The translations under genes and the position numbers were made by a program. From Erysipelotrichaceae bacterium (GTDB lineage Bacteria > Bacillota_I > Bacilli_A > Erysipelotrichales > Coprobacillaceae): 47,675 bases of DNA. The stretch covers positions 1-47,675 of the forward strand of contig JAJQFG010000107.1 of the NCBI GenBank assembly GCA_021201315.1, read 5' to 3'. Every line of letters begins with the position of its first letter. The stretch's first letter is position 1. Shown in pieces: positions 30,039 to 39,440 of the stretch. The notes under the pieces are model-generated. The model searched no databases. It had not been told where the DNA came from and saw nothing but the letters and a program-made list of their open reading frames with translations.

Positions 30039-30092
30039 ACAATTTAATTTTGCTTTTTGAATTGTGATACAATAAATCCAGGAGGAATAAAT

Positions 30093-30509
30093 ATGCTTAG
30101 AATATTATTATGCTGTGGTGGAGGTTTTTCTTCAAGTGCTATTGTTGTAAGAATGCAAAATGAAATTAAGGATAGAGGTTTAGAAGATCAATATAGTATT
30201 GATTTTTATCCATTAGAAGTTGCGGGATTAAACTATGCAAAAGAAAAATTTGTTGATTATGATGTCATTATTTGTTGTCCACATTTAAAGATGGTGGTTA
30301 AAAGAATGATGGATTCAGATGTAGAATATGATAAACCAATCTATATCTTACCACCAAAGATGTATGGAATGATGAAACTCGATGAAATCATCGCAGATTG
30401 TGAAGATGTTGTAGAAATGTATAATAAAGATCACAAAAATCCTGTTTGTTTCCCTGGTGAAGAAAACATCATGAAAGTTAAAAGAGGAGTTGCTTATCGT
30501 CATCAATAA
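30093..30509 (+). CDS. PTS lactose/cellobiose-type IIB protein (copy 1)
   Basis: 138 residues. The phospho-acceptor loop LLCCGGGFSSSA aligns with C-x-x-G-x-S-T-S of lactose/cellobiose IIB proteins, making Cys8 the phosphocysteine. It normally relays phosphate from IIA to a sugar held by IIC. The protein is about 35 residues longer than usual, with a conserved tail (FPGEENIMKVKRGVAYRH). Start at 30093 follows AGGAGG by seven bases; the reading 36 bases upstream has no such site. No IIA or IIC gene is in the window. A second, close copy follows after a terminator. Confidence 0.85.
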   Translation: MLRILLCCGGGFSSSAIVVRMQNEIKDRGLEDQYSIDFYPLEVAGLNYAKEKFVDYDVIICCPHLKMVVKRMMDSDVEYDKPIYILPPKMYGMMKLDEIIADCEDVVEMYNKDHKNPVCFPGEENIMKVKRGVAYRHQ

Positions 30510-30512
30510 TAT

Positions 30513-30542
30513 AAGATAGTCTTTTAAAAGGCTATCTTTTTT
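30513..30542 (+). terminator. Terminator between the two IIB copies
   Basis: Stem AAGATAG-T-CTTTT (30513-30525) pairing with AAAAG-G-CTATCTT (30526-30538), six-T run. The hairpin may let the two copies be expressed at different levels. Confidence 0.75.
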
Positions 30543-30570
30543 GTTACAATAATTTTAGGAGGAACATGGA

Positions 30571-31011
30571 ATGATGAGAATATTGTTATGTTGTGGTGGT
30601 GGTTTTTCTTCGAGTGCAATTACCGTGAGGATGCAAAATGAAATTAAAGAAAGAGGTTTAGAAGATCAATATAGTATTGATTTTTATCCTTTAGGTTTAG
30701 CTGAAGATATGTATATTAAAAACGAATCTTTTGATTATGATATTATTATATGTTGTCCTCATTTAACTCTTAATGTTGATAGAATGATGAATTCTGGTGT
30801 TGAATACAATATACCTATTTATATTTTGCCACCTAAGATGTATGGGATGATGATATTGGATGAAATCATCGCAGATTGTGAGGATGTCATTGAAATGTAT
30901 AAAAAGAATCCAGTCAATCCAGTCCATTTTCCAGGTGAAGAAAGAATAATGAAGGTTAAAAGAGGTGTGGCTTATCGCCATGCTCATGATAAGGAAGGAC
31001 GAAAGATATGA
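30571..31011 (+). CDS. PTS lactose/cellobiose-type IIB protein (copy 2)
   Basis: 146 residues, clearly duplicated from the gene before: residues 3-40 (RILLCCGGGFSSSA...GLEDQYSIDFYPL) and the region IPIYILPPKMYGMM to KVKRGVAYRH are nearly unchanged, while 42-60 and 66-78 differ. The Cys8 acceptor is kept. It carries an eight-residue C-terminal extension that overlaps the ROK kinase start by four bases. AGGAGG lies eight bases before the start. Divergence is confined to what may be the IIC- or sugar-facing surface, hinting at two partners; this is inference. Confidence 0.85.
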   Translation: MMRILLCCGGGFSSSAITVRMQNEIKERGLEDQYSIDFYPLGLAEDMYIKNESFDYDIIICCPHLTLNVDRMMNSGVEYNIPIYILPPKMYGMMILDEIIADCEDVIEMYKKNPVNPVHFPGEERIMKVKRGVAYRHAHDKEGRKI

Positions 31012-34694: not shown

Positions 34695-34726
34695 AAAATA
34701 ATCGTTTTAGACGATTATTTTTTATA
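34695..34726. terminator. Bidirectional terminator after the toxin remnant and tetR
   Basis: Stem AAAATAATCGT (34695-34705), loop TTTAG, stem ACGATTATTTT (34711-34721) with T-run; serves the convergent tetR gene as well. Confidence 0.8.
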
Positions 34727-35270
34727 ATATTTTACGTGTTAATTTTAATATAAGTTTAGCTTCTTGCTGAGCTGATATATTATTAGGCATTTCTAACCAC
34801 TCTAATAATAAATGATAAGCACCATGGGTTACAAATGACAGCGATGTATTCTTTTCTTCACTAGATAAATCTGAAGTTTTTTCATGAAGTAATGATTCAA
34901 TCATAGGAATAGAAAATAAACGAGAAGCAAAATCGATATCTGTATTATTTTTCATCAGTAATAAGGCTAATTCAGAATTATTCTTAGCATATTCAAAACA
35001 AAGAGCGACTTTGTTTTGAACACTCTGTTGATCATTAAAATCAGATTCCAATAATTTCTTTTCAATGGTTGAAAGAAATCGATTGGATAATTCATTTAAA
35101 ACATCATATTGACTGCCATAATAATGATAGAAGGTACTTCTGTTAATAGAAGCTAGTTGACATAACTCAGATATAGACATCGCATGAATAGGTTTTGTCT
35201 TCGCAAGCTTGATAAATGCATCATAGATTTTATTTTTTGTTTTATTAATTCTTTGTTCGTATTGATTCAT
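34722..35270 (-). CDS. TetR-family transcriptional regulator (second copy)
   Basis: 182 residues from the ATG at 35270, which has GGAGG five bases upstream; the longer frame to 35324 has no site and would cross the operator region. HTH at about 25-60 (MSISELCQLASINRSTFYHYYGSQ) and a short helical C-terminal domain with LLLEWLE. It is related to the TetR at 618-1151 in both domains. It is divergent from the TSUP-polyprenol-kinase fusion gene, whose promoter region contains a CAACA-CA-TGTTG palindrome, so it probably represses that gene. Confidence 0.88.
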   Translation of the reverse strand: MNQYEQRINKTKNKIYDAFIKLAKTKPIHAMSISELCQLASINRSTFYHYYGSQYDVLNELSNRFLSTIEKKLLESDFNDQQSVQNKVALCFEYAKNNSELALLLMKNNTDIDFASRLFSIPMIESLLHEKTSDLSSEEKNTSLSFVTHGAYHLLLEWLEMPNNISAQQEAKLILKLTRKIL

Positions 35271-35318
35271 CATTTCCTCCATAAACAACAATTTGACTAT
35301 TTTTGTTGGTTGCATAAT

Positions 35319-35330
35319 CAACACATGTTG
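35319..35330. promoter_or_regulatory. Likely TetR operator (CAACA-CA-TGTTG)
   Basis: CAACACATGTTG at 35319-35330, five-base arms extended imperfectly to eight, between the divergent tetR and TSUP fusion genes. A looser CAACA...TGTTG pair flanks 35285-35309. The same half-sites occur at 1208-1246. Confidence 0.55.
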
Positions 35331-35359
35331 TTTATGATTATAACATAGAGAGAAAGGAA

Positions 35360-36871
35360 ATGGCGCTTTTTATGGAATATTTTTGGTATATTGTAGCAGC
35401 TGCTGGAGCAGGTATTGGAACAGGTCTTGCAGGCTTATCAGCTGCAACTGTCATGGTGCCTATATTAATTGTATTGTGTCCATCCTTTGGTGGATATTAT
35501 GGAGCTTATCAAGCTACCGCAATTGCGTTAGCCTCAGATATATTAGGATCAGCAGTCACATCATATACATATGCGAAAAATAAGAATATTGATTTAAAAC
35601 ATGGGTGGGTCATGATGGCATGTATTATTGCTTTAAGTTCAGTAGGTAGTTATGTGGCTTATATTGTTGGGAATGTAGTATTAGGTGGATTTACTTTATT
35701 TTTGACTTTTTGTATTGGTATCCGTTTTATTATCAAACCTGATACTTCTAAAAAAGGTGCTAGTGCTTCTAATGTGAGATTAGGACTCAAAGAAGTTATT
35801 ATTTCGATATTTTTTGGTTTTACAATTGGCTTTGGTACTGGTTTTGTTGGTACTGGTGGAGGTATGATGATGCTTGTGGTATTTACAGCATTTTTAGGTT
35901 ACGACCTAAAAACGGCTGTTGGTACAAGTACATTTATTATGACTTTTACAGCATTAATTGGTTTTGTGGCTCATTCTATGATTAATCCTGCTATTGTTTT
36001 AGAAAGATGGAATGCTCTTATTATATGCATCGTTGTAGCAACTACAGCTTCACTTGTATCAGCAAGGTTTGCTAATAGAGTGGATAATAAAACTGTAGGT
36101 TTAACAACTGGTATTATTTTAACGATATTAGGGGCTTGTATGATTTATTTGAATTATTTTGTAGATATGCAGTTACCTGTTATAGTTACTGAAATTTTAT
36201 ATACATTAGGTATTTTAGTTGTATTTTTGATTGTAGCAGTAGCTATTGCATTATTGTTGTTTAAAGTATTTCATATTGGTGGTGAAGTTAGAAGAAAGAT
36301 ATTACATACGATTTCTTTTTTGATTATATTAGTCATTATGGTAACATCAATGCATTGGTATGTACCAGCTATTATTTGTATTATTTTTACTGTAGTTGTT
36401 TATCCAATATTATGTTTCTTTGAAAATCATCCTTTGTACAAAGATCTGTTTCAACAAAGAAATAATGGTGAAGTCAAGAAGAGTTTGATATTATTATTTG
36501 GAAATGCGACGCTATTGATTACTTTATTTTGGGGTATATTGAGTTCAGAACTAACAGTTATTGCTTCAATATTAGCTTGGGGTTTAGGTGATGAAACTGC
36601 AGCTTTGATTGGTAAAAGTTATGGTAAACATCATATTCCTATTAATGATCATAAAAAGACATATGAAGGAAGTATTGCAATGTGTATAGTCGCTTTTATA
36701 GCGATTGTTATAACGTTGTATATTGGACATGTAAGTTTGCTGAAATCTGTTTTAGTAGCCTTAATAGGTAGTATTGGAGCAACTGTTATAGAAGCTATTA
36801 GTATTAAAGGTTATGATACAGTAACGGTTTCTTTTGTAACATCAATTATTATATTTATTATGTTGCATTAA
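35360..36871 (+). CDS. TSUP transporter fused to a polyprenol/dolichol-kinase-like domain
   Basis: 503 residues, polytopic throughout. Residues 1-265 are a TauE/SafE (TSUP) permease with its two internal repeats (GIGTGLAGLSAATVMVP; FGTGFVGTGGGMMMLVV), a family exporting sulfonates, sulfite or related anions. Residues about 275-503 resemble the CTP-dependent polyprenol/phytol/dolichol kinase family: RRKILH (311-316), GDETAALIGKSYGKHHI (410-426), KKTYEGS (432-438) and GATVIEAISIKGYDTVTV near the end. Both halves look intact. The fusion suggests transport coupled to lipid-alcohol phosphorylation. The site before the ATG (AAAGGA) is very close; the ATG at 35372 is an alternative. Confidence 0.82.
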   Translation: MALFMEYFWYIVAAAGAGIGTGLAGLSAATVMVPILIVLCPSFGGYYGAYQATAIALASDILGSAVTSYTYAKNKNIDLKHGWVMMACIIALSSVGSYVAYIVGNVVLGGFTLFLTFCIGIRFIIKPDTSKKGASASNVRLGLKEVIISIFFGFTIGFGTGFVGTGGGMMMLVVFTAFLGYDLKTAVGTSTFIMTFTALIGFVAHSMINPAIVLERWNALIICIVVATTASLVSARFANRVDNKTVGLTTGIILTILGACMIYLNYFVDMQLPVIVTEILYTLGILVVFLIVAVAIALLLFKVFHIGGEVRRKILHTISFLIILVIMVTSMHWYVPAIICIIFTVVVYPILCFFENHPLYKDLFQQRNNGEVKKSLILLFGNATLLITLFWGILSSELTVIASILAWGLGDETAALIGKSYGKHHIPINDHKKTYEGSIAMCIVAFIAIVITLYIGHVSLLKSVLVALIGSIGATVIEAISIKGYDTVTVSFVTSIIIFIMLH

Positions 36872-36902: not shown

Positions 36903-38126
36903 TTAAATAGTTTTCATATTTTTAACAATATTTAATCCTATTATTGCTAAGATTGCTATAACTAAACCTATCATAAAGATTAAACTATATGATGCAGTAA
37001 AATCATAAATATAACCAATGATAGTTACTGCAAACGCTGCACCAAAGTTACAACCAAATGTTATCCATGAATAAGAAGATGAGTAATTATCACTACCAAA
37101 GAAAATTCTTGTCATAATAGCAAGTCCAACGGCACAAACAGAGTAAATAGCACCAAATAAGAATGCTGCAATTAATAATATATACTCATTTTTAAACACC
37201 ATAAACATAATGAGTGCTAATATATTAATGGCTATCATAGCATAAACTGATTTTATAATACCTATCATATCTGAAAGTATACCAATCAAGAATTTAGAAC
37301 AAATATTACCAATCATAGTTGCTGATAACATTAAAGATCCTAAAGTAGCAGTAAAACCAATACTTAAAGCATATGTAGGTAAATGAGAAGACATAGCTGT
37401 AATAGCATTTAATATAATTGCAATGATAAAGAACATAATAAATTTAGGTTGAAGAACTTTAAATTTTATTTCATCTTCTAATTGTAATTCTTTTAATGAA
37501 ACACTTGTTTTGCTTTCATACTCTTTCTTATAAGGTAATCGCCCTTCATCTTCAGGTCTTATTTTAAAAGGAAATAATAAGAAAGGCAAAACTAATACAA
37601 AACTTAAAATAGCTACCACAAAATAAGTATTTTCCCATCCAATAGATTCAATTAAATTTGTAAACACTGGTGATAAAACAGCACCACCCACACCACTAAA
37701 ACAAAAAGTTATCGAGGTGGCTAAACCATTCTGTTTATATATCCAATTATTAATAATAATAGTAACAGGAATTGCACCATACATCGCTGCACCGATACCT
37801 CTTATTATCCCTAAAATATAAAACAAAATAATATGATGAGACAATCCCATTGCAAAAGTAGACAAGCTCGTAAGGCTTACGCCTATCAATACCATTAACT
37901 TTAAAGGAACTTTTTTGATGATTTGAGGAACAAATAAAGCTGTTAAAGCAGTTGCCAATAAACAAAATGTCGCATGTAAAGTAAATGTTCCTTGTGATAC
38001 GCCTAATGCTGTTGATACAGGTGTATAAAATACACCGACCGTATTCACAACTATGCCAACACTACTAGCAGCAATTAAACAACAACATGCAACAATAATC
38101 CAATACTTAATACCACTATTTTTCAT
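36903..38126 (-). CDS. MFS transporter (copy 1)
   Basis: 407 residues, twelve predicted membrane helices with a central loop around residue 195-220. The start at 38126 follows GAGGTG by six bases; an in-frame ATG 54 bases upstream lacks a site. It resembles the oxalate/formate antiporter-like (OFA/MCT-type) branch of MFS, with residues SSVGIVVNTVGVFYTPVSTALGVSQG in helix 1-2. Substrate unknown. A close paralogue lies just upstream in the same direction. Confidence 0.88.
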   Translation of the reverse strand: MKNSGIKYWIIVACCCLIAASSVGIVVNTVGVFYTPVSTALGVSQGTFTLHATFCLLATALTALFVPQIIKKVPLKLMVLIGVSLTSLSTFAMGLSHHIILFYILGIIRGIGAAMYGAIPVTIIINNWIYKQNGLATSITFCFSGVGGAVLSPVFTNLIESIGWENTYFVVAILSFVLVLPFLLFPFKIRPEDEGRLPYKKEYESKTSVSLKELQLEDEIKFKVLQPKFIMFFIIAIILNAITAMSSHLPTYALSIGFTATLGSLMLSATMIGNICSKFLIGILSDMIGIIKSVYAMIAINILALIMFMVFKNEYILLIAAFLFGAIYSVCAVGLAIMTRIFFGSDNYSSSYSWITFGCNFGAAFAVTIIGYIYDFTASYSLIFMIGLVIAILAIIGLNIVKNMKTI

Positions 38127-38177
38127 GTAATACACCTCATTTAATATATTGTAGCTTATATATAAATGATTGTCTAA

Positions 38178-38201
38178 CAAAAAAAGGACTTCAAAGTCCT
38201 T
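38178..38201 (-). terminator. Terminator of MFS copy 2
   Basis: On the minus strand: stem AAGGACTT, loop TG, stem AAGTCCTT, then a seven-T run (plus-strand A-run 38178-38185). Confidence 0.8.
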
Positions 38202-38204
38202 GTA

Positions 38205-39440
38205 TTATAACGTTTTCATGTTTTTAACAATATTGATTGATATGATGGTTGCTATGGCAATGACTAAACACATGACGAATATTAAAGCATAAGAAGCGGT
38301 AAAATCATAAATATAACCAATAATCGTAACAGCAAAAGCACCACCAAAGTTAGAAGCAAATGTAATATTAGAATATGCAGTTGAATAATTTTCAGTACCA
38401 AAGAAAACTCTTGTCATAATCGCTAATCCAACAGCACAAACAGAATAAATGGCACCAAATAAGAAAGCGGAAATTAATAAAGTATATTCAGTTTTAAATA
38501 ACATAAACATAACTAATGCTATCATATTAACAGCAATCATAGTAAATACTGATTTAACAATACCAATTGCATCTGAAAGTATACCAATTAAGAATTTAGA
38601 ACAAATATTACCAATCATAGATGCAGATAACATTAAAGAACCTAATGTAGATGTAAACCCAATACTTAAAGCATATGTTGGTAAATGTGATGCCATACCT
38701 GGAATAGCATTAATAAATATAGCTACCAAAAAGAATATAATAAACTTTGGTTGCATAATATTAAATTTCTTATCTTCTTCTCCCTCAAATTTTATTTCAC
38801 TCATAGGTAAATCTGCTTCACTTTCATACTCCTTACCATATGGTAATCTTCCTTCTTCCTCTGGTCTATTTTTAAAAGGAAATAGTACAAATGGTAAAGC
38901 TAAAATCAATGTAATAATTGCAACTACAAAATACGTTGATTCCCATCCAATAGATTCAATCAAACTTGTAAACACTGGTGACAAAACAGCTCCAGCAACA
39001 CCACTAAAACATAAAGCTAATGAAGTAGCTAAACCATTTTGTTTATAAAACCAATTGTTAATAATAGTTGTAACAGGCATAACACCATATAATGCAGCAC
39101 CAATACCTCTAATAACACCTAAAATATAAAATAACATAATATTATGAGAAAATCCCATCGCAAAAGTTGAACCAGCTGTAAGCACAGTTCCAATTAATAC
39201 CATTAATTTTAAAGGTAACTTTTTCATAACACCAGGAACAAACAATGCTGTAATTGCAGTTGCTAATAAACAAAATGTTGCATGTAATGTAAATGTTCCT
39301 TGTGATACAGCTAATGCAGTTGATACAGGTGTATAAAATACGCCAATTGTATTGACTACAATACCTATACTGCTAGCTGTAACTAAACAACAACATATCA
39401 GTATAATCCAATATTTTATACCACTATTTCTCTTTTCCGT
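38205..39440 (-). CDS. MFS transporter (copy 2) with ACG in place of the start codon
   Basis: The frame is open for 411 codons and matches copy 1 along its whole length, beginning xEKRNSGIKYWIILICCCL versus MKNSGIKYWIIVACCCL. Where copy 1 has ATG, this gene has ACG (39438-39440), nine bases after a strong GAGGAGG site. There is no other ATG, GTG or TTG before the second membrane helix; the first ATG in frame is at 39245, which would remove about 65 residues and two helices. Either ACG is used as a rare start, or a single T-to-C change has silenced an otherwise intact gene. The remaining sequence shows no frameshift or stop. Confidence 0.8.
   Translation of the reverse strand, partial: TEKRNSGIKYWIILICCCLVTASSIGIVVNTIGVFYTPVSTALAVSQGTFTLHATFCLLATAITALFVPGVMKKLPLKLMVLIGTVLTAGSTFAMGFSHNIMLFYILGVIRGIGAALYGVMPVTTIINNWFYKQNGLATSLALCFSGVAGAVLSPVFTSLIESIGWESTYFVVAIITLILALPFVLFPFKNRPEEEGRLPYGKEYESEADLPMSEIKFEGEEDKKFNIMQPKFIIFFLVAIFINAIPGMASHLPTYALSIGFTSTLGSLMLSASMIGNICSKFLIGILSDAIGIVKSVFTMIAVNMIALVMFMLFKTEYTLLISAFLFGAIYSVCAVGLAIMTRVFFGTENYSTAYSNITFASNFGGAFAVTIIGYIYDFTASYALIFVMCLVIAIATIISINIVKNMKTL

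Follow-up and report, generated by a model that had tools for sequence, protein, structure and literature searches.

Kinases of the VTE5/FOLK/dolichol kinase group are CTP-dependent enzymes that act on lipid alcohols and carry GD..AA, K..G and DN/DT-VP motifs; yeast Dgk1 belongs to the same group. To our knowledge neither VTE5 of plants and cyanobacteria nor plant FOLK nor the Plasmodium enzyme PolK is joined to a transporter, and we do not know the N-terminal part of dolichol kinase (SEC59/DOLK) as a TSUP permease. Prenol kinases identified so far amount to a handful from photosynthetic organisms and Plasmodium (PMC9782597, PMC10849223). PolK has been shown experimentally to be a CTP-dependent farnesol/geranylgeraniol kinase and its model contains an Arg-Lys..His clamp as well as eight helices (PMC10849223). 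In DOLK the catalytic portion is C-terminal (PMC11542857).

The gene described here is located in a window of 47,675 nucleotides (the whole stretch of DNA that was analysed) from an Erysipelotrichaceae gut bacterium, and encodes a membrane protein in which a TSUP permease is followed by a domain with the motifs of these kinases. As in DOLK, the kinase-like part is C-terminal, but the protein is bacterial. A search of a literature library revealed no paper naming both TauE and phytol kinase, and a plasmid search yielded separate TauE proteins or a partial match without annotation, and nothing else.

The fused gene and its spread

The open reading frame at positions 35360-36871 (forward strand) is a single intact frame of 503 codons, encoding 503 aa, with no internal stops and a plausible ribosome site. 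Residues 11-260 (35390-36139, forward strand) match the TSUP domain (TauE/SafE, PF01925) of Pfam with an E-value of 2.5e-29 and 103.1 bits against a curated cut-off of 32.6. The protein thus shares with other TSUP permeases the full TauE domain, including both glycine-rich repeats, GIGTGLAGLSAATVMVP and GFGTGFVGTGGGMMMLV. In the same phylum, separate TSUP proteins consist of this one domain (about 255 aa, with some 45% identity to the TSUP half of the fusion), whereas in the fused protein it is followed by about 230 kinase residues. The kinase-like domain occupies residues 274-503 (36179-36868, forward strand); separate kinases of the same phylum comprise about 205-260 aa and are about 30% identical to it or less. 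The window's genome also encodes a partial TSUP near the start of a contig (C91, 188-673; L002), which shares about 40% identity with the TSUP half of the fusion.

Including the window copy, 78 full-length fused ORFs were aligned, 38 of which remain at less than 80% mutual identity. The alignment combines loci from a scan of genome contigs with those of the window's genome and of one sister species, some loci belonging to the same assembly, and the number of fused copies is a lower bound since only the best 80 of 259 relatives were retained. Most copies originate from gut MAGs assigned to Lachnospiraceae, Oscillospiraceae, Erysipelotrichaceae and other Firmicutes; single copies carry the labels Coriobacteriaceae, Bacteroides and Chloroflexi, possibly through binning errors. 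Within the window's phylum the fused form appears to be uncommon, since a fused copy was detected in 3 of 392 sampled genomes, one of the three being frameshifted; prevalence beyond this phylum was taken solely from the contig scan.

Many other gut bacteria encode this joined protein with its kinase signature intact, often together with the same regulator and operator, and the fusion is therefore real. The proposal made from the sequence-only reading, that a TSUP permease is fused to a polyprenol/dolichol-kinase-like domain, is confirmed by the intact frame, the TauE match and the 78 fused copies: the ORF is a genuine fusion of a TSUP permease with a DolK/phytol-kinase-like domain. Its homologues are not consistently encoded by two genes, as had been considered there, and many species share the fused form. 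The TSUP half is the more conserved part, with a mean consensus frequency of 0.85 vs 0.57 for the kinase half in the 78-copy alignment.

Four species of the genus were compared, and two of them (G001 and G003) carry frameshifted fused copies. That of G001 shows a single-base gap; in G003 a one-base insertion and a one-base gap are accompanied by a 12-base deletion beside GDEAAAL and by changes at GE and D486. These frameshifted copies (L052:5001-6511 and L005:850-2349, one with further kinase-motif losses) possibly reflect decay or, above all in the single-base case of G001, sequencing errors. With two of four species affected, the function of the fused gene may be dispensable in the genus.

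Kinase signature and membrane topology

The signature of the kinase half includes RKILH (R312, K313 and H316; 36293-36307), which resembles the charged Arg-Lys..His clamp that has been suggested for PolK of Plasmodium. The alignment of the fused copies further revealed the invariant pair G370-E371 (36467-36472), WGLGDETAALIGKSYGKH at residues 407-424 (36578-36631), and KTYEG at residues 433-437 (36656-36670) with invariant K433 and G437. These are followed by E478 ... DTVTVS at residues 478-491 (36791-36832), of which E, D and T are invariant among the fused copies; all of these features are located on the forward strand. The RKxxH, GDETAALIGKxxGKH and KKTYEGS motifs are found where the earlier reading had placed them, with core residues that are invariant across copies.

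Among 22 kinase positions checked, 18 are identical in all 78 fused copies (R312, K313, H316, Y348, P349, G370, E371, W407, G408, G410, D411, A414, A415, G418, G422, H424, K433 and G437), and S375 is identical in 77. E478, D486 and T487 are identical in all 77 copies legible there, the remaining copy reading X. The motif positions are common to the fused copies and the separate kinases, and DTVTVS of the window copy corresponds to DNxxVP in the latter, with S instead of P at residue 491.

The kinase half of the window copy yielded no Pfam match. CTP_transf_1 (PF01148) was matched by 12 of the 38 aligned fused copies at E-values of up to 1 (best 1.9e-10); three of them, L058, L060 and L064, exceed the cut-off of 24, L060 with an E-value of 8.1e-10 and 39.4 bits. 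The motif set of the VTE5/FOLK/dolichol kinase group (RK..H, GD..AA, K..G, D[NT]..VP) is present in the fused kinase half, and the part from about residue 274 to 503 is, judged by these motifs, a divergent member of this group of CTP-dependent lipid-alcohol kinases. It would thereby share the group with VTE5, FOLK and PolK, and has the RK..H clamp and eight helices in common with PolK, but differs from all three in following a TSUP permease, in its divergent sequence and in the missing Pfam match of the window copy. The CDP-diglyceride synthase CdsA shares PF01148 with those fused copies that match this family; however, an identity with CdsA was rejected, as the HGGxxDRxD signature, which is present in the genome's own CdsA, occurs in 0 of the 78 fused copies.

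The predicted model of the whole protein has a mean pLDDT of 79 and a pTM of 0.52, the TSUP half being the weaker part, and shows eight long helices in the kinase half. No PDB relative of the TSUP half was found by sequence, and the PDB sequence search otherwise gave no useful relatives. If the TSUP half is counted as eight helices, the positive-inside rule orients the two halves oppositely in each of the 78 copies. With a count of 10+8 helices, in which the short helices 28-39 and 167-178 are treated as membrane-crossing, the halves agree in 78 of 78, and the K/R content places the catalytic loops of the kinase and the matching TSUP loops on the same side. As ten helices were considered only once the count of eight had failed, this agreement is a matter of consistency and not a test. 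The two halves can thus agree on a cytosolic kinase face if ten rather than eight TSUP helices are counted.

The divergent TetR gene and a candidate operator

Divergent to the fused gene, a DhaS-like TetR-family regulator with Pfam TetR_N and TetR_C_8 domains is encoded at 34722-35324 (reverse strand). The listed ORF begins at GTG; the true start is more likely to be located near 35270-35282, behind GGAGG, and the operator would therefore lie outside the TetR gene. The candidate operator is a 27-bp element, TGTTGGTTGCATAATCAACACATGTTG (35304-35330), which is retained across distant genera in the stretch separating the TetR gene from the fusion. An outer inverted repeat (35280-35336) has the arms CATAAACAACA (35280-35290) and TGTTGTTTATG (35326-35336).

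The operator pattern was written by hand from upstream sequences and then matched against at most 300 bases preceding each fused gene, with two loci offering too little sequence and some of the scored loci being the source of the pattern. Scores of at least 28 of 33 were obtained in 18 of 78 loci vs a maximum of 21 in shuffled upstream sequences, in which base composition only was kept; the number of independent loci is smaller than 18, since the upstream sequences of L003 and L026 are identical. In 16 of these 18 loci a DhaS-like TetR gene is divergent within 200 bases. The 27-base form occurs once in the window, with 0 matches in 100 shuffles, and the core has one zero-mismatch copy in the genome, namely the site at 35304-35330. 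A wider TetR regulon was rejected: the other eight core matches have three mismatches, and the reversed control pattern gave four. The control of the fused gene by TetR, as suggested from the first inspection of the DNA, is supported by the conserved divergent regulator gene together with the conserved putative operator.

A conserved operon around the fusion was rejected, nothing recurrent being detected apart from TetR; in particular, no recurrent neighbour for isoprenoid or lipid synthesis was found at the fused loci. Elsewhere in the window, two adjacent similar MFS genes are located at 36903-39245 (reverse strand); in its listed form the second is about 60 residues short at the N-terminus. 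Two similar small proteins, PTS IIB-like by eye and with LRILLCCGGGFSSSA and MRILLCCGGGFSSSA near their starts, are encoded in tandem at 30057-31011 ahead of a ROK-like ORF.

Proposed function and alternative explanations

We regard it as an evenly balanced question whether the product is a two-part integral membrane protein handling a membrane-soluble isoprenoid (or similar lipid) alcohol. More specifically, and only tentatively, we propose a TetR-switched vectorial prenol salvage, in which the protein would import or flip an isoprenoid alcohol or an anionic derivative via its TSUP half and trap it by CTP-dependent phosphorylation. By analogy to VTE5, FOLK and dolichol kinases, the C-terminal half would most likely bind a nucleotide, presumably CTP, on the cytosolic face and transfer its terminal phosphate to a lipid alcohol, presumably a prenol. 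The N-terminal TSUP half would most likely carry either an amphipathic anion or the lipid as such through the membrane, and the combination of uptake or flipping with phosphorylation in one polypeptide would amount to trapping by phosphorylation. The divergent TetR would most likely sense the substrate or a related compound and, once ligand-bound, leave its conserved candidate operator. This scheme is weakened by the missing Pfam match of the window's kinase half, by the lack of a recurrent isoprenoid neighbour and of DUF92/SQS_PSY in the genome, by the TSUP half having no PDB relative, by the disagreement in the 8-helix count and by the frameshifted sister copies.

The trees of both domains are compatible with a single joining of TSUP and kinase, bearing in mind that both gave long-branch warnings and that the sampling followed the fused query: the fused sequences all fall on one side of a branch, with a support of 100 for the TSUP half and of 96/93 for the kinase half. 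The fused kinases are distant from those of carotenoid clusters, and the nearest separate kinases in the tree are those of L142-L144. At these loci (L142:4890-6268, L143:5063-6478 and L144:4353-5712) the kinase gene is followed by a small membrane gene of the Cation_efflux type, the partner being a separate gene of a different membrane family; L142 also has a divergent TetR gene.

The two activities might instead be independent and placed in one chain for co-expression or membrane placement, with the TSUP half exporting a small anion such as sulfite or sulfonate. The conservation of the TSUP halves on their own and the existence of close separate TSUPs would agree with this, as would the Cation_efflux-type gene next to the nearest separate kinases, by which the partner may be exchangeable. 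However, the fused proteins group into a single clade in the tree of either half, nothing suggests that the halves have separated, and no adjacent split pair of TSUP and kinase genes was seen among the matches from the 392-genome sample. We therefore consider such independence unlikely.

The substrate proposed for the salvage scheme is drawn from the separate kinases, many of which share a cluster with DUF92 and a gene of the squalene/phytoene synthase family (SQS_PSY), and most of these also with a CrtI-family desaturase. The neighbours were assigned by Pfam and NCBIfam at L019 and judged by eye from sequence beginnings at the other loci. Among the loci listed, carotenoid-type clusters with a VTE5-like kinase include L019, L145, L146, L148-L150, L154, L156, L157 and L159; other separate kinases, such as those of L147 and L155, have no DUF92 or synthase neighbours. 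At L153 (96-1469) the kinase is joined to DUF92 (Pfam match at residues 220-447) in one 457-aa ORF, possibly a two-step prenol-to-diphosphate enzyme. The pairing of the kinase with a VTE6-type DUF92 protein, a family which we take to be COG1836, recalls plant VTE5 with VTE6. VTE6 is a phytyl-phosphate kinase and has been linked to COG1836 genes (PMC9782597).

Clusters of a VTE5-like kinase, DUF92 and a phytoene/squalene synthase look like isoprenol salvage feeding carotenoid synthesis. Since the separate kinases with informative neighbours sit in such clusters, C15-C20 prenols are pointed to, and this context favours a prenol over undecaprenol as the kinase substrate. The window's genome carries its own CdsA and DgkA; DUF92 and SQS_PSY were not found in it, and a monophosphate product could therefore not reach the diphosphate by the known route.

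Undecaprenol had been the substrate favoured from the sequence alone: the kinase half would phosphorylate C55-OH and the TSUP half handle a linked anion, making the protein a cell-envelope carrier-lipid salvage enzyme. Dolichol kinase does belong to the same broad group and the kinase signature is invariant, but a role as the sole undecaprenol kinase is weakened by DgkA, the usual undecaprenol kinase of Firmicutes, being present in the genome. Furthermore, the informative separate kinases are tied to carotenoid/DUF92 clusters and not to cell-wall genes, and two sister species have frameshifted copies of the gene, so that this function appears rather improbable. A similarly low probability is given to a CTP-dependent diacylglycerol kinase resembling yeast Dgk1, or to another kinase of non-isoprenoid membrane alcohols. 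Dgk1 being a member of the group and the distance of the fused kinases from the carotenoid-cluster kinases would fit this function, whereas a recurrent lipid-synthesis neighbour is missing and prenols are suggested by those relatives whose neighbours are informative. An assembly artefact, or a stop codon missed between two genes, for which the frameshifted copies of two sister species might speak, is refuted by the 78 full-length fused ORFs, which stem from many different assemblies.

If the proposed import and trapping of prenols is true, the permease-kinase fusion would represent a bacterial entry to prenol salvage in gut Firmicutes and would hint for the first time that a TSUP permease has a lipid-linked role. 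The unit of TetR and its putative operator would offer a compact means by which the substrate could be found.
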